The notes under the pieces: model-generated
What the model saw: only the letters and a program-made list of their open reading frames with translations
What the model was told of the DNA's origin: nothing
The model's database searches: none
Shown: positions 2,042 through 49,529 of the stretch, in pieces
Numbering within the stretch: position 1 is the first letter of the stretch
Layout of the letters: every line of letters begins with the position of its first letter
Assembly: GCF_009377195.2 (NCBI RefSeq)
Contig: NZ_VJXX01000001.1
Location: 1,612,001-1,676,000, forward strand
Direction: 5' to 3'
DNA from: Arthrobacter bussei
GTDB taxonomy: Bacteria; Actinomycetota; Actinomycetes; Actinomycetales; Micrococcaceae
DNA: 64,000 bases
Position numbers and translations under genes: made by a program

Positions 2042-3481
2042 TCAGAGACCGAGGGCCGGCACCGGGAGGCCGAATTCGCGCCGGAGGGCGAGCTTCGCGG
2101 CGTTGAAGCCGGCCATCCCATGGACGCCGGGACCGGGCGGCGTGGACTGCGAGCACAGATAGACGCCCTTCAGCGGAGTGGCCCAGGGCCGGATGGAGGG
2201 CACCGGACGGGCTACGATCTGCCGCAGGTTCACCGCTCCGCTGCTGAAATCACCTCCGACGTAGTTCGCGTTGTAGGCCTCGAGATCGCTCGCCGTCGTC
2301 GTGTGGGTGCGGACGATGACGTCCCGGAAGCCGGGCGCGAAGCGTTCGATCTGCGCGGTGACGGCCTCGGCCATGTCACGGGTGGAGCCGTGTGGGACAT
2401 GGCAGTACGTCCACAGGGTGTGCCGGCCCTCGGGCGCGCGGGTCGGATCGAAGGACGACGGCTGGGAGAGGAGCACGTAGGGACTGTCCGGGTGCACGCC
2501 CTGGTTGACCTGCTTCTCCCCCGCGACGATCTCCTCGCGCGTGCCACCGAGATGGGCGGTCCCGGCCCGTCGCAGGTCCGGATGCGTCCACGGCACGGGG
2601 CCGGACAGGATGAAGTCCACCTTGCAGGCCGCGTTCCCGTAGGTGAACGCCTCGAGGGCCCTCCTGTAGGGACCGGTCAGGCGGCCGCGGGCCATCGCCT
2701 GGAACGTCGTGGGAGCGACGTCGAGCAGGACCGCCCGGGCGCCGGACACCTCGGCGAGGGTGTCGATCCTGCTTCCCGTGACCAGCTCCCCGCCGTGGCG
2801 CGTCACGTCGAGGGCGAGGGCGTCGGCGATGGCCTGGGACCCGCCGACGGGGATCGGCCAGCCGACCGTGTGCGCCAGGAGGTTCAGCACCAGACCCGCT
2901 CCGGCCCCGGTCAGGGACGGGAGTGTGCCGACAGGATGGGCCATCACACCGGTCACCAGCGCCTTCGCCTCGTCCGTCCGGAAACGGCGGTTCCAGGTGG
3001 GCAGGCCCTGGTCGAGGACCGAGAGGGCGAACCGCAGGGCTGCCTCCGGCTTCCTCGGGATCCGCACCACGTGGTTGAGGGTGAAGGCGAGGATCGCCTG
3101 CTCGCGGTCGCTGAGCGGCTGCACGAGGCGCCGGTAGGCTTCGCCGTCGACGCCCAGCCCGGCAACCGTGCGCTCCATGCTGCGGTGGGCCACCCCGGCC
3201 CGGCCGCCGTCGAGCGGATGGGCGAAGGACACGTCGGGGACGGCGAAGCCGATGCGCCGGCTGAGTTCGAAGGCCCGGAAGAACGGCGACGCGAGCGCCA
3301 TCGGGTGCACAGCGGAACAGAAGTCGTGGAGGTGGTCCCGTTCCATCAGTTCGAGCGATCGGGAGCCGCCGCCGATGGTCGCGGCGGCCTCGTGCACCCG
3401 GACCGACAGTCCGGCGCGGGCCATGACGACGGCGGCGGCCAGCCCGTTGGGACCTGCGCCGACGATCTCGACATCAACCAT
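2042..3481 (-). CDS. FAD-dependent NAD(P)-type oxidoreductase, phytoene-desaturase superfamily
   Basis: A 479-residue flavoprotein. The N-terminus (residues 3-25) is a dinucleotide-binding fold with GAGPNGLAAA, followed by the conserved acidic/Gly segment (HEAAATIGGGSRS). The C-terminus has the second FAD motif common to CrtI-like amine-oxidoreductases (GVYLCSQSTPPGPGVHGM, about residues 435-455). Length and both motifs fit the large family of uncharacterised actinobacterial phytoene-desaturase-like oxidoreductases. No carotenoid genes are adjacent, so a carotenoid role is not supported. The substrate cannot be deduced. It is followed upstream by the FemAB-like gene after a 42-base gap and may share its transcript. 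Confidence 0.8.
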   Translation of the reverse strand: MVDVEIVGAGPNGLAAAVVMARAGLSVRVHEAAATIGGGSRSLELMERDHLHDFCSAVHPMALASPFFRAFELSRRIGFAVPDVSFAHPLDGGRAGVAHRSMERTVAGLGVDGEAYRRLVQPLSDREQAILAFTLNHVVRIPRKPEAALRFALSVLDQGLPTWNRRFRTDEAKALVTGVMAHPVGTLPSLTGAGAGLVLNLLAHTVGWPIPVGGSQAIADALALDVTRHGGELVTGSRIDTLAEVSGARAVLLDVAPTTFQAMARGRLTGPYRRALEAFTYGNAACKVDFILSGPVPWTHPDLRRAGTAHLGGTREEIVAGEKQVNQGVHPDSPYVLLSQPSSFDPTRAPEGRHTLWTYCHVPHGSTRDMAEAVTAQIERFAPGFRDVIVRTHTTTASDLEAYNANYVGGDFSSGAVNLRQIVARPVPSIRPWATPLKGVYLCSQSTPPGPGVHGMAGFNAAKLALRREFGLPVPALGL

Positions 3482-31819: not shown

Positions 31820-32292
31820 GCCCGCCTATCGGAGCGAGAGCCCCCGTCGGTAATTAACAGGTGTGGACACAGCTGTGGATAAACCCCTCCCTCAGCCCGG
31901 TCATCCTGAGGACAAACCCCCTCCACCCTGTGGATGCCCGGAATTACAAGGATCTTGCCCACAGGAGGCTCCTGTCGACCGTTCTGCCGACCCACACCTT
32001 GTCCACAGGCCACTTCGGTGCAAGCCCGCGGCCGCAGCGGGTTATCCACAGAATCCACAGCAGTTATTAACACTACGAACCTTAAACTTCAAAAGTTCTT
32101 CAGATAACATTCCACGTCCCGCCCCACGCCGATCCCCGGGACCTCCGCCCCGCTTCGCGGACGCGATGTCCGGCTAAGCTTTCACCCAGTAGGGTTGTAG
32201 TTCCCCGTGCCCGGGCACCTCCGTGGACGACGTTGGACCCATCACCCGCCGGCTGCGCCGGTGGCTGTTTTTTTGAAAGGCGGCACTGCTCC
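31820..32292. other. Replication origin oriC (dnaA-dnaN region)
   Basis: The 473-base gap has a dense array of DnaA boxes. Perfect 9-mers are TGTGGATAA at 31874, TTGTCCACA at 31999 and TTATCCACA at 32042. Looser boxes are at 31862 (TGTGGACAC), 31929 (TGTGGATGC), 31955 (TTGCCCACA) and 32051 (GAATCCACA). Right of the last box is the AT-rich segment 32060-32110, with TTATTAACAC and CTTAAACTTC, the likely unwinding element. Gene orientation flips outside the dnaA-rpmH border, as expected near an origin. Confidence 0.93.
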
Positions 32293-33417
32293 GTGAAATT
32301 CAGAGTTGAGCGGGATGTACTGGCGGAGGCTGTCTCCTGGACCGCACGCTCGCTGTCTCCACGCCCGCCGGTGCCCGTTCTCGCAGGACTGCTCATCAAG
32401 GCGGAAGCAGGAACACTCAGCCTCGCCAGCTTCGACTACGAGATCTCCGCGCGCCTCGAGATCGCCGCGGATGTCCTCGAAGAAGGCACGATCCTCGTGT
32501 CAGGCAGGCTCCTCGCCGATATCTGCCGCAGCCTTCCGTCCGCTCCCGTCGAGGTCGCCACCGACGGCTCCAAGGTCACCCTCACCTGCCGGAACAGCCG
32601 CTTCAACCTCGCCACCATGCCGGAAGGTGAATACCCGGAGCTACCGAAGCTGCCCGACGTCAGTGGTGTCGTGGACGGAGAAGCGTTCGCCCAGGCCGTC
32701 TCCCAGGTGATCATCGCCGCCAGCCGGGATGACACGTTGCCCATCCTGACCGGTGTCCGCATGGAGATCGAGGACGATCTCATCACGCTGCTCGCAACCG
32801 ACAGGTACCGTCTGGCGCTCCGCGAAGTGTCCTGGAAGCCGACCACCCCTGGCATCTCGACCAGCGCACTCGTTAAGGCGAAGACCCTCAACGAGGTGGC
32901 GAAGACACTGGGCGGGGCCGGGGACCTCAACATCGCGTTCTCAGCGGACTCGGAACTGATCGGATTCGAATCAGGCGGTCGACGCACCACCTCGCTCCTC
33001 GTGGATGGTGACTACCCGAAGATCCGTTCGCTCTTCCCGGAGAAGACCCCGATCCACGCAACGGTCCAGACCAGCACCCTGGTCGAAGCGGTACGTCGTG
33101 TCTCCCTCGTCGCAGAGCGGAATACACCCGTCCGCCTCGCCTTCACCGATGGTCAGGTCACGCTCGACGCCGGCACCGGCGAAGACGCACAGGCATCCGA
33201 GGCCATCGAAGCGACCCTGGACGGCGACGACATCACCGTCGCCTTCAACCCCCATTACCTGAGTGAGGGTCTGGGTGCCTTCAGCAGCCCGTATGTGCGC
33301 TTCTCCTTTACCTCACCTCCGAAACCTGCGGTCATGTCCGCCCAGGATGACGTCACGGGTGAGGACAGGGAAGACTACAGGTACCTGCTGATGCCCGTGC
33401 GGCTCCCCAACCAGTAG
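32293..33417 (+). CDS. dnaN: DNA polymerase III beta subunit (sliding clamp)
   Basis: A 374-residue clamp with three similar domains. It starts VKFRVERDVLAEAVSW, contains VPVLAGLLIKAEAG, TLPILTGVRMEIEDD and TDRYRLALREV, and ends DYRYLLMPVRL, the usual C-terminal hydrophobic-binding segment. The GTG at 32293 is preferred; the frame extends to 32233 in the origin region. The AAAGG site is rather distant. Confidence 0.96.
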   Translation: MKFRVERDVLAEAVSWTARSLSPRPPVPVLAGLLIKAEAGTLSLASFDYEISARLEIAADVLEEGTILVSGRLLADICRSLPSAPVEVATDGSKVTLTCRNSRFNLATMPEGEYPELPKLPDVSGVVDGEAFAQAVSQVIIAASRDDTLPILTGVRMEIEDDLITLLATDRYRLALREVSWKPTTPGISTSALVKAKTLNEVAKTLGGAGDLNIAFSADSELIGFESGGRRTTSLLVDGDYPKIRSLFPEKTPIHATVQTSTLVEAVRRVSLVAERNTPVRLAFTDGQVTLDAGTGEDAQASEAIEATLDGDDITVAFNPHYLSEGLGAFSSPYVRFSFTSPPKPAVMSAQDDVTGEDREDYRYLLMPVRLPNQ

Positions 33418-43372: not shown

Positions 43373-44257
43373 TCAGGCTTTGGGCTCGTCGTCCGTCGAC
43401 TTCGCCGCATGCTTGGCCGACTCGGTGACGTCCTTCGCCTTGTCGGCGACCTTCTCGGCTGCTGCTGCCGTCCCGGTCGTCGCCGAATCGTCCGAGCCAG
43501 CGGCTCGGTCAGCCGCTTCCTTGATGGTCGCGACGACGTCCTTGGCCTCCTGCGACTTCTGGCTGGAGACGGGAGCCGGGGACGCCTTGATCGGAGCGGG
43601 CGTCTTCCATGGATCCTCGACCGGCTTCGATGCGCGCCATGCAGCTACTCCGGCCACGACGGCGGCTGCCAGGATGCCGAAGATGAGCCAGCCCTTCCCG
43701 GACTTGCGGGACTGGTTCTTCCTGAGCTCCTTCGATGCCTGGAGAGTGGCGGCTGCGAGTCGCTTCTGGGCGTTCTTCACGGCCTTCTTGTCACCGGTCA
43801 CCCTGGTGACGGCCTTCTCCACGACGGGAGGCACGGAAGCGGCAGCGAGCGACCGGGAGGCACTGTCCGCGGCCTCACCGAGCCGGTTGGACAGGGCCGG
43901 CAGGTAGCCTTCGACGACCTTCTCCTTCGCGGACGTGAGTGCAGGGGCCGCTTTGTCCAGCGTCCCCTGGATCTTCGGCGTGGTGCCGTCGATGACCTGC
44001 GTGATGCGTGGTCCGACCTTGTCGAGTCCGTCCTGGATCTTCGGGGTCACCACGGCGATGCCGCCCGAGATCCCCTCCGCGGCCTTGCGGTACGTGTCCT
44101 GAAGAGCGGGACCAGCGGTCTCCACGCCCTTGTCCCAGCGGGGCTTCGCCCAGTCGTAGGCGTGGGTCACGTGGGGAGTGGCCCAGTCACGGGCGGCCGC
44201 TACGCCCGCAGCGACGTTCTCCTCGAGCTCGTGCGTGACGCGTTCGTTCTTCTTCAC
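43373..44257 (-). CDS. Helical membrane-anchored protein of unknown function
   Basis: A 294-residue protein. The first 175 residues are amphipathic helices rich in Ala, Lys, Asp and Val with repeated VTPKIQDGLDKVGPRI-like segments. A basic stretch (RKNQSRKSGKG) leads to a single membrane helix near residues 187-206 (WLIFGILAAAVVAGVAAW). The C-terminal 80 residues are Ala/Ser/Lys-rich and disordered. The GTG at 44257 has a strong GGAGG site; upstream frame to 44362 is not needed. No catalytic motif is visible. It resembles uncharacterised actinobacterial phasin- or apolipoprotein-like helical proteins. Confidence 0.75.
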   Translation of the reverse strand: MKKNERVTHELEENVAAGVAAARDWATPHVTHAYDWAKPRWDKGVETAGPALQDTYRKAAEGISGGIAVVTPKIQDGLDKVGPRITQVIDGTTPKIQGTLDKAAPALTSAKEKVVEGYLPALSNRLGEAADSASRSLAAASVPPVVEKAVTRVTGDKKAVKNAQKRLAAATLQASKELRKNQSRKSGKGWLIFGILAAAVVAGVAAWRASKPVEDPWKTPAPIKASPAPVSSQKSQEAKDVVATIKEAADRAAGSDDSATTGTAAAAEKVADKAKDVTESAKHAAKSTDDEPKA

Positions 44258-44421
44258 AAAAACCTCCAGGGGGTGGTTACTCGTTTTCCTCAGCCTACGT
44301 TGCATGGCGCAGCGCATGCCATCCGCGGGCTCAGCAAGGGCGGGTTTGACCACGCGTTTCACTGTGCGCGGAATGCGTCTCCCCCAGCTTATTGTCAGTA
44401 CCCGCGTGGAAGAATGGCGCC

Positions 44422-44964
44422 ATGACTGCTATTCCGACCGCAAAAGCGACCATCCACACCAACCAGGGCGACATCGAGGTGAACCTCTTCGGCAACCATG
44501 CTCCCAAGACGGTGAAGAACTTCGTCGGTCTCGCCACGGGCGAGATCGCCTGGACCCACCCGCAGACGGGTGAGGAGTCGAACGCCCCCCTGTACAGCGG
44601 CACCATCTTCCACCGCATCATCAAGGACTTCATGATCCAGGGCGGGGATCCCCTCGGCCAGGGGATCGGTGGACCGGGCTACAAGTTCGACGACGAGATC
44701 AACCCCGATCTCTCCTTCACCGAGCCGTACAAGCTGGCCATGGCCAATGCCGGCCTGCAGGGTGGCCGTGGCACCAACGGGTCCCAGTTCTTCATCACCT
44801 CGGTTCCCACGACCTGGCTTCAGGGCAAGCACACCATCTTCGGTGACGTCACGGACGAGGAATCCCGCAAGGTCGTCGACACGCTGAACTCGATCCCGAC
44901 CGACATGAGGGACAAGCCCCTCGACGACGTGGTCATCGAGAGCATCACCGTGGAACAGCTCTAA
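44422..44964 (+). CDS. ppiA: Peptidyl-prolyl cis-trans isomerase, cyclophilin type
   Basis: A 180-residue cytosolic cyclophilin. The catalytic motif SGTIFHRIIKDFMIQGGDP has the conserved Phe and Arg, and the active-site segments NAGLQGGRGTNGSQFFIT and HTIFGDV follow. No signal peptide is seen. The ATG at 44422 gives the family length; the frame is open from 44392. Confidence 0.94.
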   Translation: MTAIPTAKATIHTNQGDIEVNLFGNHAPKTVKNFVGLATGEIAWTHPQTGEESNAPLYSGTIFHRIIKDFMIQGGDPLGQGIGGPGYKFDDEINPDLSFTEPYKLAMANAGLQGGRGTNGSQFFITSVPTTWLQGKHTIFGDVTDEESRKVVDTLNSIPTDMRDKPLDDVVIESITVEQL

Positions 44965-44968
44965 CCGG

Positions 44969-45841
44969 ATGTCCTATGGAGTCCCCGCGCCCGACGCCGG
45001 CAGCCAGCAGGCGCCGGTCTGTCCCCGCCATCCTGATCGCATCAGCTACGTGCGGTGCCAGCGGTGCGGACGACCGGCGTGCGCCGATTGCCAGAGGCCT
45101 GCACCCGTAGGCTTCCAGTGCGTCGATTGCATCCGGGAACAGGCGGCCAACACGCCTGTCCGCCGGAATGCGTTCGGTGGCATCGCGCGCGGGGGCTCAC
45201 CCATCGTGACCTACATCCTGATCGGTGTCTGTCTGGTGGTCTTCCTCCTCCAGCTCGTCGTTCCGGGCGTCACCCGGGCCTTCTCCTACGCGCCCATCTA
45301 TACGGCGGGGGCCGGCGGGATCATTCCCGCGGAACCCTGGCGCATGGTGACGGCCGCGTTCCTCCATTCGCCGTCCTCCTTCCTGCACATCGCCTTCAAC
45401 ATGTACGCGCTGTACATCCTCGGCAAGGTGCTCGAGCCATCGATGGGGCGGGCCAGGTTCCTTGCGCTCTACCTCGTCTCCGCCGTCGGCGGTTCCGTCG
45501 GGGTCCTGCTGCTCAGCAATGTCCAGCAATCGGTGGTCGGCGCGTCCGGGGCGGTCTTCGGTCTCTTCGGGGCCCTGTTCATCGTCCAGCGCAAGCGTGG
45601 AGGCGACGTACGCCAGATCGTCGTCCTGATCGCACTCAACGGCGTCCTCGGGTTCGTGGTGCCGGGCATCGCCTGGCAGGCCCACCTGGGTGGTCTCCTC
45701 ACGGGCGCCGCCTGTGCCGCTGTCATCGCCTATGCCCCGAAGGGTGTTCGGCAGGCGGGACTGCAATGGGCGGGCCTGGCCGGTGTCGTGGTACTCCTCG
45801 GCATCCTGACCTTCGTCGGGGTCACGCTCCTCCCCGTATGA
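44969..45841 (+). CDS. Rhomboid family intramembrane serine protease with N-terminal zinc finger
   Basis: A 290-residue membrane protease. Residues 18-54 hold paired Cys/His (CPRHPD, CQRCGRPACADCQ, CVDC), a B-box-like zinc ribbon. The six-helix rhomboid core has the catalytic Ser193 in GASGAVFG and His239 in WQAHLGGLL, and the H-bonding HIAFNMYALY before it. Both dyad residues are intact. The natural substrate is unknown. It follows ppiA after 4 bases and ends in a strong hairpin. Confidence 0.92.
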   Translation: MSYGVPAPDAGSQQAPVCPRHPDRISYVRCQRCGRPACADCQRPAPVGFQCVDCIREQAANTPVRRNAFGGIARGGSPIVTYILIGVCLVVFLLQLVVPGVTRAFSYAPIYTAGAGGIIPAEPWRMVTAAFLHSPSSFLHIAFNMYALYILGKVLEPSMGRARFLALYLVSAVGGSVGVLLLSNVQQSVVGASGAVFGLFGALFIVQRKRGGDVRQIVVLIALNGVLGFVVPGIAWQAHLGGLLTGAACAAVIAYAPKGVRQAGLQWAGLAGVVVLLGILTFVGVTLLPV

Positions 45842-45852
45842 GGTCAGCAGGA

Positions 45853-45890
45853 CGAGGAAGGGCCGATGCTGGAGCATCGGCCCTTCCTCG
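45853..45890 (+). terminator. Strong hairpin after the rhomboid gene
   Basis: A perfect 18-bp inverted repeat (45853-45870 with 45873-45890) lies 12 bases beyond the stop codon and is followed by TTGTCC. Confidence 0.85.
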
Positions 45891-46040
45891 TTGTCCACAG
45901 GGCTTATCCACAGCGGGGATAACTTACACACATGTGATTCCACAGCTGTGGATAAGCGGGGCCCGGAATCCCGGGCTCTTTCGTGAATCATCAACAATTT
46001 TGTGCACATCTGTGGATAACGTCATGCACACCGTGTGTAC
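45891..46040. promoter_or_regulatory. Secondary DnaA-box cluster
   Basis: Four strong DnaA boxes lie within 130 bases: TTGTCCACA at 45891, TTATCCACA at 45904, and TGTGGATAA at 45947 and 46011. A weaker TTGTGCACA is at 46000. The interval is also AT-richer than its surroundings (GGGATAACTTACACACATGT and ATCAACAATTTTGT). It is about 14 kb from oriC, between two genes that end there. Candidate roles are DnaA titration or reactivation, or a second initiation element. Confidence 0.8.
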
Positions 46041-46056
46041 AGCCGGGAACTGCGGG

Positions 46057-48104
46057 TCAGTATCCGAAGATCGACCGGCGAATCGGTTCGGCCAGGGTCT
46101 GCGCGAAGGAATCGGTGATGTGGTTGTCGCGGTACACGAGGACGTTCCCGACCACGTAGGGACATGTTCCTTCACGGCAGAATGCACCCGAGAGGTCCAC
46201 CACGGAGACTCCCTCGAGACCTTCTGCTGCTTCGAGCATCGGATCGTCGGCCTGTTCCCCCTGCGGACGGTCCACGCAGTCGTCCATGACGTCCTCGCTC
46301 CTCTCCACGCACTCGGGGGCGCCTGTCGGGACGGCAGGGGTGAGTCACTGATGACACGAACGTCGATGCCGGCCTCGACGAGCCGCTTCCATGCCGAGCG
46401 ATAGCCCTCCACGGCCTCGTCGCGGGAACGCCACGTCCAGCTCAGCTCACGCTCGTATCCCGCCGGTCGGAAGTTGCTGGTCACCACCATGTCCGGAGGG
46501 TCGGCGAGCAGGGTCTGCAGGGTCAGCTCATTCCGCTCGATGCAGTCGCCGAAGACTGCCGCGCCGCTCCCGAGGGGCGCAGCACTGAAGGGACACCCGT
46601 TCCGCACCTGTGCGTCGAGGATGAAGCCCTCCTGCCGGAACACCGCATCCAGGGGAGACAGATACTGCGCTGCATGGGAGTCCCCGACCAGCACGGCTCG
46701 ATCCGCACCTTCTGCATCGCCGTAACGACAGGCGTCGGCTTCCATCTCGCTCGGTTCCCACAGCAGGCACCCGTTGCCCGCGAGCTCATTCTGATCTCCG
46801 CTCGCCAGGGCAGGATCCGGCTGGACGGGCGCAGCCGCGACATCCGACCTCTCCCAGGCCGCAGCCCCCGGGTACACGGCCGGGTCCAGGGAGGCGCCGA
46901 GATCCTGCGCACTCTTGAGGGTGATCAGGCTCCACGGGAGAGCAGCGGCGGTGAGGGAGAGGACAAGGAGGCCGGAGCCGAGGACGTAGGAGTACCGCTT
47001 CAGTTCACGGCCCGGCTGTCGGTCCCCGCCTGTACGGCGTCCTGCCGTACGGGCGCGATTGAGCGGGAGTTCGATGAACCGAGTACTGGTCCATGCCAGC
47101 AGCACGGCGGACACGAGGATGATGGCGCCGTCGAGCACCGAGGGCTGCCGCTCGACGACGAACAGGTAGAGCACGATCAGCGGCCAGTGCCACAGGTACA
47201 GCGAATAGGAGATGTCGCCGATGAAGACGGCTGGGCGGATCGACAGGACCCGGACGAGTCCGGAGGCACTTCCGTGTGCGGATCCGGCGGACAGGACGAG
47301 AAGGGTGCCAAGCACCGGCACTGCAGCGATCCAGCCCGGGAAGGCGAGCTCGGTGGAGAAGGTTGCCGCACCGGCGGCGATGAGCAGCGCGCCCAGGACG
47401 AAAGAGACATCGGCCGCACCACGACGGAGGGCCGGTGCGGTGACGGCCAGGATCCCTCCTGCCAGCAACTCCCACAGGCGGGTGGTGGTTGCGAAGTAGG
47501 CGATGTCAGGATCGGACCCGGAAAATGACACGGAGTGGATGAGGGATGCGGCGCCGAGAAGCGTCAGCGCTGTGACGATGAGGCGCGATCGACGCGCCGG
47601 GCTCCGATCCCCGATCGACCTCACCACCAGCAGGATGAGAAGAGGCACGACCAGGTAGAACTGTTCCTCGACCGCGAGCGACCAGAAGTGCTGGAGGGTG
47701 GAGACCGGTCCGCCGGCCTGCTCGTAGCTGGTGGAGGCGAGGGCGAGGTTCCAGTTCTGCGCCTGCAGCGCGGAGGCAACGACGTCCCTGGCGAGCTGGG
47801 TCCAACGGCTCGCCGGGAGGATCAGGAGCGAAGCGACGGTCGTCACGGTGAGGACGACGGTCGCCGCCGGCATGAGCCGCCGGATCCGCCGGCGGTAGAA
47901 CGCAGCGAGATCGACGCTCCCCGTCCGCGCCGCCTCCCTGGCGAGGGAGCCCACGATGAGATACCCGGAGATGACGAAGAAGACGTCCACGCCCACGAAT
48001 CCCCCGGGCAATGCTTCTGGTACCAGGTGGTAGACGACGACCAGCAGCACCGCGACCGCACGGAGTCCCTGGATGTCGGTACGCCGCGGCACTGCCGTAC
48101 TCAT
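46057..48104 (-). pseudogene. OafA/YrhL-type acyltransferase with SGNH domain, frameshifted
   Basis: A large O-acetyltransferase-like gene. The N-terminus STAVPRRTDIQGLRAVAVLL, GGFVGVDVFFVISGYLI and TLQHFWSLAVEEQFYLVVPL define the membrane acyltransferase-3 domain. After about residue 370 comes an SGNH hydrolase-like domain with VLVGDSHAAQYL (Ser of the GDS motif). The frame is broken in a run of five G (46315-46319, plus strand). One base more would join the frame ending VISDSPLPSRQAP to the one reading ERSEDVMDDCVD and then VYRDNHITDSFAQT, which holds the DxxH motif. Read as one gene it ends at 46057. It may be a true mutation, slippage, or a sequencing error. Confidence 0.85.
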
Positions 48105-48284
48105 CGGCCTGTGCTCCGTCCGGCATCGGGTCGAGCCGCCACTGCCACCGGGAAAGCGCACAAACAGTTGATTCTGCCGGCGTCAAGCAAATAATTCACT
48201 GTGACATTGTGACCCACGCCCTGGCCGTTCCGGGGCAACGGGCGAGGTTACGGGATGGATGTCCCCCGGGCGCGCACTACCCGG

Positions 48285-48533
48285 TCAGCGCCACCGGGTG
48301 GTCATCAGGAACCCGATGATCGCGATGCCGAACCCGACCAGGATGTTCAACGAACCCCAGGCCTCCACGGGCAGGGTGGACTCGGAGATGTAGAACGTGA
48401 TGATCCAGAGCAGGCCGACGATCATCAGGCCGAACATGACGTACTTGTACCAGGCCGGATTCGGCTTGGGTTGCGAGGACTTCGCGGCGGGTGCCGTGGT
48501 GCTGGCTCTCTTGCGGGGCTTCGACTCGGGCAC
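48285..48533 (-). CDS. crgA: Cell division protein CrgA
   Basis: An 82-residue membrane protein. A basic N-terminus is followed by PAWYKYVMFGLMIVGLLWI, a short external loop, and a second helix ending FLMTTRW, the CrgA signature. CrgA coordinates FtsZ- and PBP-linked septum events in actinobacteria. It is divergent from the class E sortase gene. Confidence 0.93.
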   Translation of the reverse strand: MPESKPRKRASTTAPAAKSSQPKPNPAWYKYVMFGLMIVGLLWIITFYISESTLPVEAWGSLNILVGFGIAIIGFLMTTRWR

Positions 48534-48713
48534 GGCTTCTCCTCGACGGGGTGCAGCCGCGGATCAGCCGCACCGATGGTCTCGCTGGCCGCTCGAAGGT
48601 GCCCGGGCCCGCAGGATATCCTGAGGGAGAAGCGACACCCGGCGGCCCGGTTCTCCGACGATTCTAGCCAAGAACCGCGGCCGATCAGTGCATCCCGAGC
48701 GGCAGGAGCGGCA

Positions 48714-49529
48714 GTGGCCAGGTCTACGCTCGATGCCGCTCCCGCGACCGGTGCCGATCGCGGAGCCGTGCGCCGCCGTCGTTCGCCCCTGCAGCTGATC
48801 GTCCAGATCGTCGGCGAGCTGCTCATCACGGCCGGGCTGGTGCTGCTGCTGTTCGTCGCCTGGGAGCTGTGGTGGACGAACATCGACGCGGACATCAAGC
48901 AGGATCAGGCGCTCGAGGAGTTCTTCTCGGACGTCCCCGTTCCTCCGGCAACGGCCGGACCTGCCCCCTCGGCCGGATCCGTACCGCCGGTCGGTGAGGA
49001 CTTCGGGGAGCCCGCCGTGCTCGAGCAGGCTGCCCTCACGGGGACTTTCGGTGTGGCCTACATCCCCCGCTTCGGGGAGGACTATTCCCGCCCCATCACC
49101 GCCGGAGTCGGGACGGAAGTGCTCGACAACCTGGGACTGGGCCACTATCCGGGAACCGCCGCTCCAGGCCAGGTGGGCAACATCGCCCTTGCCGGGCATC
49201 GTCAGACGCACGGTCAGGTCCTCGACCAGATCCACACCCTCGTTCCCGGGGACCGCATCTACCTGCAGACCAGGGATGGGTACTACACCTACGTGTTCCG
49301 CAACACCGAGATCGTCCTTCCGGACCAGGTCGACGTGATCGCCCCCGTACCCACTGATCCGGCCGCCGAGCCGGTGGACCGGATCCTCACACTGACCAGC
49401 TGCAATCCGCGCTTCGGGGCGCAGGAGCGTATCATTGCCTACTCGGTGATGGAGTCCTGGCGTCCGCCGGAGGCCGGTCCTCCGCCCGAGATCGCGGAGC
49501 AGGTCGCCCGCACCGCAGGACGTGGATAG
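48714..49529 (+). CDS. Class E sortase
   Basis: A 271-residue membrane-anchored transpeptidase that attaches proteins to the cell wall. One N-terminal helix (residues 23-45, LIVQIVGELLITAGLVLLLF) is followed by an extracellular catalytic domain. The catalytic residues are visible: His162 in ALAGHRQTHG, Cys230 in TLTSCNPRFG and Arg239 in QERIIAYSV. The TLTSC motif is that of class E. The GTG at 48714 has a GGAG site; frame is open upstream. Substrates would carry LAXTG-type signals. Confidence 0.9.
   Translation: MARSTLDAAPATGADRGAVRRRRSPLQLIVQIVGELLITAGLVLLLFVAWELWWTNIDADIKQDQALEEFFSDVPVPPATAGPAPSAGSVPPVGEDFGEPAVLEQAALTGTFGVAYIPRFGEDYSRPITAGVGTEVLDNLGLGHYPGTAAPGQVGNIALAGHRQTHGQVLDQIHTLVPGDRIYLQTRDGYYTYVFRNTEIVLPDQVDVIAPVPTDPAAEPVDRILTLTSCNPRFGAQERIIAYSVMESWRPPEAGPPPEIAEQVARTAGRG

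Follow-up and report, generated by a model that had tools for sequence, protein, structure and literature searches.

An intergenic cluster of DnaA boxes, arranged around a conserved palindrome, is found about 14 kb from oriC in Arthrobacter bussei. The boxes are rare in this genome, their spacing and position are conserved, and the palindrome (dyad) is also conserved and has few other sites. Our analysis causes us to consider the site a DnaA-binding control locus that restrains re-initiation of replication, and neither a promoter nor an origin, with a probability of roughly 0.58. This kind of site is already known. What appears to be new, judging from the literature searched, is its recurrence between rhomboid and crgA genes in many families, the spacing of its boxes, and a dyad with a putative small regulon.

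Boxes and dyad at the site

In the window, meaning the whole stretch of 64,000 nucleotides that was analysed, positions 45891-46019 contain DnaA boxes of which three are perfect, one is TTGTCCACA and one is weaker. This agrees with the preliminary description, which had claimed four strong boxes and a weaker one in two orientations, and the span is 129 bp. The claim of an AT-richer interval also holds, with a GC content of 50.3% for positions 45891-46041 compared to 67.0% for the whole window. Likewise, the separation of about 14 kb from oriC is confirmed, where oriC is the dnaA-dnaN gap (about 31820-32298). The features of the site and its flanks are given below, with invariant columns counted in an alignment of 31 genus sequences.

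44969..45841, + strand: rhomboid-family membrane protein gene, left flank (Pfam PF01694)
45854..45889, + strand: 15-bp perfect inverted repeat directly past the rhomboid stop, read from the sequence
45891..45899, + strand: DnaA box 1, TTGTCCACA; 7 of 9 columns invariant
45904..45912, + strand: DnaA box 2, TTATCCACA, 13 bp after box 1, a recurrent spacing; 6 of 9 columns invariant
45914..45922, - strand: weak facing DnaA box 3, TTATCCCCG, with two mismatches; 5 of 9 columns invariant
45922..45939, no strand: conserved 18-bp dyad ACTTACACACATGTGATT, consensus AATNACACNNGTGTNATT; 17 of 18 columns invariant
45938-45944: TTCCACA arm facing box 4; 7 of 7 columns invariant
45947..45955, - strand: DnaA box 4, TTATCCACA; 8 of 9 columns invariant
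46000..46008, + strand: weak DnaA box 5, TTGTGCACA; 3 of 9 columns invariant
46011..46019, - strand: DnaA box 6, TTATCCACA, at a facing distance of 11 bp from box 5; 8 of 9 columns invariant
46022..46042, no strand: two more weak box-like sequences, TCATGCACA and TGTGTACAG, read from the sequence, which carry on an 11-12 bp rhythm
46057-48161, - strand: acyltransferase/SGNH gene between the site and crgA (domain match)
48285..48533, - strand: crgA cell-division gene, separated from the site by the acyltransferase gene (Pfam PF06781)

Box 3 is located 10 bp after box 2 and closes a triad, and stronger versions of it are found in other families. Beyond box 6, 10 of the 22 columns from 46020 to 46041 are invariant in the 31 genus sequences. 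The inverted repeat is probably a transcription terminator hairpin that lacks a T run; a scan for consensus terminators at the site found none. Among the 32 distinct genus sequences, 21 have an exact hairpin with arms of at least 8 bp ahead of box 1, although its sequence differs among them.

The two genes that were said to converge on the site deserve a qualification. The rhomboid gene does run into it, whereas the right-hand gene is the acyltransferase/SGNH gene, which is apparently frameshifted near its 3' end. In the assembly, the 3' part of this gene seemingly lies in another frame, by sequencing error or decay. In relatives the convergent partner at this junction is crgA: 26 of the 32 distinct genus sequences have it after the rhomboid gene (21 of them within 700 bp), and the other six have no convergent crgA within the stretch examined. 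Such facing gene ends argue against a promoter. They agree with a control site bound by DnaA, as do the position and the way the boxes are arranged.

There are five matches to TTWTNCACA in the window, three at the site and two in oriC, compared to 0.34 expected from shuffles. A genome-wide box count, proposed earlier as a check, covered the whole assembly (3.63 Mb in 42 contigs) and gave eight perfect copies of TTATCCACA, with three at the site, two in oriC and three single. The pattern TTNTNCACA has 89 genome-wide matches (45+44), five of them at the site, compared to 29 (10+19) for the backwards pattern, and a Poisson scan gives a probability of about 1e-8 for five within 129 bp anywhere. 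Chance clustering is therefore rejected on the basis of the shuffles and the Poisson scan. As in an oriC-proximal cluster, several boxes occupy a short intergenic region near oriC beyond chance. The density is indeed like that of oriC, as had been claimed: allowing at most one mismatch from TTATCCACA, there are four boxes in the 129 bp here and three in the dnaA-dnaN gap.

The same genome has a second cluster upstream of dnaB (Pfam DnaB), with seven loose boxes in about 180 bp. It lies outside the window, about 87 kb away across oriC (L191 4171-4353, which is G000:C9 about 1557170-1557352), and no dyad was found in it. By the loose definition it is about equally dense, and thus the rhomboid-side site is not the sole candidate for a DnaA sink.

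Conservation at the rhomboid-crgA junction

The site was expected to lose credit if relatives lacked it, and it is clearly present after the rhomboid gene in relatives, as would be expected for an oriC-proximal cluster. The comparison joined the 17 closest of 80 rhomboid loci found by sequence similarity with 30 further loci; once 15 exact duplicates were dropped, there were 32 distinct genus sequences, with L004 and L016 counted in the genus by rhomboid identity only. A profile was built from 31 of these, leaving out L099, which has a run of N; L197 and L198 were added later. The profile also matches these three unused sequences. Thus, the element is present in all 34 distinct genus sequences, comprising 31 used to build the profile and three that are independent.

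All of the 17 closest loci (L001-L017) have at least four boxes located 50 to 194 bp past the rhomboid stop, with a box spacing of 0/13/56/119-121. In the 31-sequence alignment, the 43-bp spacer has no invariant column, compared to 17 of 18 for the dyad and 8 of 9 each for boxes 4 and 6, and this suggests purifying selection on the boxes and the dyad. The 13-bp direct-pair pattern is present in 31 of 35 genus genomes compared to one of 22 other genomes searched. The genus genomes without it are G002, G004, G017 and G034, yet the profile matches them as well. Two tandem matches to the element are found in Paeniglutamicibacter terrestris and in one Micrococcaceae MAG (L051 4891-5319; L055 4971-5385).

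The distance from the dnaN start to the rhomboid end is 13.2-14.7 kb in all ten family members measured. More broadly, it is under 60 kb in 35 of 45 genomes (G222 was left out) and 74-411 kb in the other ten, where the argument from early duplication given below is weaker.

For the class, 40 loci were picked by hand to span families, mostly one or two from each, including four from Micrococcaceae and four from one Streptomyces-like genus. The interval could be measured in 28 loci, those in which crgA is convergent and at least 30 bp separate the genes; ten have no convergent crgA match in the stretch and two have shorter intervals. At least one loose box (at most one mismatch from TTATCCACA or TTGTCCACA) is found in 27 of these 28 rhomboid-crgA intervals and at least two in 24. 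In some distant genomes, the rhomboid gene by which the junction was located could be a paralogue. There are 104 boxes in the 21,545 bp of intervals compared to 4.6 expected from dinucleotide shuffles, and the rest of these loci, 170,370 bp in length, contains 37. Since this site type recurs at the same junction in many families of Actinomycetes, we regard it as a probable ancient brake or timer of replication.

This recurrence is not universal, which counts against the control-locus reading. Four of the 28 intervals have one box (L120, L132 and L145) or none (L146), and no box follows the rhomboid gene in the stretch examined for L119, L131 and L134. A 13-bp pair is located 4.3 kb past the rhomboid gene in L134, just beyond the stretch scanned for boxes. 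The exact 13-bp direct pair has 31 matches in 26 of 148 class genomes compared to two matches for the reversed control, and 14 of the 31 lie at most 5 kb downstream of rhomboid. A rule that the site always follows crgA was rejected because the loci with long inserts are split between both neighbours, with boxes beside crgA in L125, L133, L147, L148 and L150 and beside rhomboid in L112, L117 and L124.

There are four to six boxes in the intervals of the Streptomyces-like genus (L135-L138). We call it Streptomyces-like because its four genomes have 6-11 chaplin matches and a dnaN placed centrally on a long contig. Six weaker chaplin matches are also found in G273, from another family.

Spacing was counted in 120 loci (80 plus 40), which are related, such that the pairs are not independent events. 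Pairs in the same direction are most frequent at 12 and 13 bp (28 and 71 pairs, 99 in total), and facing pairs at 10 and 11 bp (23 and 37, 60 in total). There are no back-to-back pairs at 10, 11 or 13 bp, and three at 12 bp. Triads composed of loose boxes are found in 27 of the 120 loci; the triad of the window requires a third box with two mismatches. According to PMC11317965, ChIP in E. coli indicates a preference for boxes 2-3 bp apart, which is 11-12 bp from start to start.

The dyad and its other sites

The dyad abuts the triad, is not a DnaA box, and is the most conserved neighbour of the boxes in the genus. It is probably a site for a second DNA-binding protein. In 96 of 119 loci a dyad match scores 11 or more out of 14 (L070 was dropped, having almost no downstream sequence), a count that is partly circular because the consensus was derived from the same loci. 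An independent test is provided by a genome-wide search with a reversed control, in which AATNACACNNGTGTNRTT with at most one mismatch is matched in 106 of 119 genomes of the order and the reversed control in 12; G069 gave reversed-control matches only.

In the 40-locus set there are 34 dyad matches in 27 loci, compared to about two expected anywhere from mononucleotide shuffles. None of the 34 is further upstream than 40 bp before the rhomboid stop, and where crgA is convergent (23 matches) all of them lie before the end of that gene. The four Streptomyces-like loci (L135-L138) have boxes and no dyad scoring at least 11, which counts against the control-locus reading.

The dyad pattern with at most two mismatches occurs in only seven places in the A. 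bussei genome, compared to one for the reversed control. The only perfect copy precedes a DUF3263 gene and falls within the adjacent ung frame when that frame is read at its longest. Copies with one mismatch are found ahead of nrdR, of a whiB gene and of an NlpC/P60 gene, and copies with two mismatches are found in two other places and in the DnaA-box cluster itself. The best other sites are as follows.

L184 1501-1518, L185 1501-1518, L186 1501-1518, L187 1501-1518: dyads before DUF3263/NapA-like, NrdR, WhiB and NlpC/P60 genes

None of these four has a loose DnaA box within its 3-kb locus, and thus the dyad seems to act without DnaA elsewhere. Possibly, to judge from their sequences, these sites constitute an undescribed small regulon. 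Among the matches listed from the order, which fall in 30 loci, there is a shared WhiB-family gene beside the site in nine (by Pfam in six) and a DUF3263 gene in five (by Pfam in three). A rhomboid gene is present by coordinates in seven, with the site downstream of it in six and upstream in L172, and the remaining nine loci were left unassigned.

WhiA, whose motif is GACAC, is disfavoured as the dyad binder because the first letter of the dyads varies. For BldD, the half-site looks like the dyad half, but the spacer differs by one base. A literature search with the letters of the motif, which most subscription papers lay outside, found no actinobacterial report of the dyad. The DUF3263/NapA-like protein is a possible partner, since the only perfect dyad copy precedes its gene, and it may bind the dyad. 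It scores 142.9 against the NCBIfam model 'nucleoid-associated protein NapA', which is under the cut-off of 160. It also matches PDB chains 9n2n and 9n2g, where 'Fis family transcriptional regulator' is the label of the depositors and not proof of kinship with E. coli Fis. Mycobacterial NapA is described as an AT-preferring nucleoid protein in PMC7177045.

Probable restraint of initiation and alternative explanations

Several DnaA molecules would occupy the triad (boxes 1-3), box 4 and a second array formed by boxes 5 and 6 and the two weak sequences, wherein a separate protein on the dyad between the boxes would shape the complex. Because it is only about 14 kb from oriC, the locus would be copied soon after initiation. 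The doubled site would then take up or inactivate DnaA, such that premature re-initiation is restrained, which is also the reported effect of datA and of the clusters near oriC in Bacillus and Streptomyces. Restraint is the presumed direction of the effect: according to PMC4585315 and PMC5742627, clusters of DnaA boxes in B. subtilis and in S. coelicolor repress initiation at the wrong time, and for this reason we prefer a restraining site with a partner and consider a DARS-like site its main rival.

The preliminary description had offered a datA-like or DARS-like control site on the one hand and the remnant of an origin on the other. A control site of the datA, DARS or cluster kind is the best class, and the remnant is not supported. 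What that interpretation overlooked is the recurrence beyond Micrococcaceae, the pairs and triads with their recurrent spacing, and the fact that the most conserved part is another palindrome that is not a DnaA box.

A more specific proposal, drawn from the sequences and put forward tentatively, is that this is a composite replication-timing site of Actinomycetes at which a DnaA triad acts together with a nucleoid protein bound to the palindrome, in the manner of IHF and Fis at DARS2 and of IHF at datA, with a DUF3263/NapA-like protein as the potential partner. If true, one small regulon would connect a DnaA brake with the supply of nucleotides, with WhiB as a regulator of division and with the crgA-side site. 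Should the partner be a NapA-like protein, then replication control, dNTP synthesis and division would come under one regulator.

One alternative is a DARS-like reactivation site, at which the triad would position DnaA such that ADP is released, ATP-DnaA is regenerated and initiation is promoted. The three-box topology with a facing pair resembles that of E. coli DARS1 and DARS2, in the window only by way of a third box with two mismatches. Specifically, two same-direction boxes plus one facing box make up the DARS1 core as read from K-12 (L152), with a forward box at 3108, a reverse box at 3122 and a further reverse box at 3134. PMC10380432 similarly describes DARS as a head-to-head pair plus a third box and names the DNA-bending proteins IHF and Fis as partners of DARS2. 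However, the facing distance is mostly 10-11 bp here compared to 14 bp in DARS1, which places the boxes on another helical face. The triad spacings found (10-12 and 12-14 bp) do not match the 14 and 12 bp, start to start, of the DARS1 core, and the third box in the window is weak. In addition, DARS sites are far from oriC, and closeness to oriC is more reminiscent of datA. Topology is undecisive by itself, since datA too has a facing pair, at 12 bp (L153). Thus, a DARS-like function seems rather improbable to us.

E. coli datA resembles the site in that its DnaA boxes are intergenic and surround the binding site of a protein other than DnaA, and its facing pair is accompanied by a direct pair 12 bp apart. 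The protein site in datA is for IHF, whereas here a different palindrome lies between the boxes in another gene context, and so the layout is analogous only.

The presence of the dyad counts against the control-locus reading in that the locus could mainly serve another regulator. The DnaA boxes would then be secondary at a site for a DNA-binding protein with a role in linking division genes or in organizing the region around the origin. Within the genus the dyad ranks first in conservation, the wide occurrence of its near-identical pattern in the order is noted above, and its four best other sites are free of loose boxes. However, the boxes are conserved beside the dyad and persist without it in L135-L138, which leads us to regard this explanation as unlikely.

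A transcriptional function for crgA or rhomboid, such as a roadblock or antisense control at the facing gene ends, might explain why the site keeps between these genes in many families. However, both genes end at the junction wherever crgA is convergent (26 of 32 genus sequences and 30 of 40 class loci), and with inserted DNA the boxes stay by one neighbour or the other. A sigma-70 scan found no promoter-like sequence at the site, which is a weak test for actinobacteria. This function is therefore very doubtful, and a neighbour's promoter as the main role was rejected because the flanking genes face the junction. A search of positions 44000-49000 against Rfam found no structured-RNA match at gathering score.

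A remnant or auxiliary origin would agree with a box density above that of the dnaA-dnaN gap, but it is scarcely credible because the site adjoins rhomboid and acyltransferase/crgA genes in place of dnaA or dnaN and remains separate from oriC across many families. In the AT-richest 40 bp, the GC content is 35% compared to 30% in oriC, a difference that is small and not decisive. A windowed GC skew has no clear switch even at oriC and is thus uninformative on this point.

The control of the number of replication starts in Actinomycetes is poorly known compared to that in E. coli. The fixed spacing, fixed junction and attached palindrome make a defined deletion target in many genera, and the palindrome offers a route to the partner protein. 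Literature searches on DnaA boxes in Arthrobacter, on actinobacterial clusters, and on DnaA with rhomboid and crgA found nothing on the site, with most subscription papers outside the search, and part of the novelty may be already in print. Reportedly, oriC-proximal DnaA-box clusters have been described for Streptomyces coelicolor (Smulczyk-Krawczyszyn 2006) and Bacillus subtilis (Okumura 2012). According to citing papers, those of B. subtilis are similar to our site in placing DnaA boxes that restrain initiation near oriC, but they belong to another phylum. The S. coelicolor cluster is from the same bacterial class, has boxes close to oriC and is said there to repress untimely initiation.

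The Streptomyces-like genomes have boxes at the rhomboid-crgA junction and also a further cluster, and either could be the site of 2006. The dnaB-side cluster of A. bussei was rejected as a homologue of this further cluster, because there is no tblastn match between the reading frames of L191 and L192-L194 and the flanking genes differ. The further cluster is found in three of the Streptomyces-like genomes, 84-98 kb away across oriC (L192 3604-3915, L193 3687-3998 and L194 4095-4407). It is located between pheA and serS in L192, the one that is annotated, and is possibly the cluster studied in 2006.
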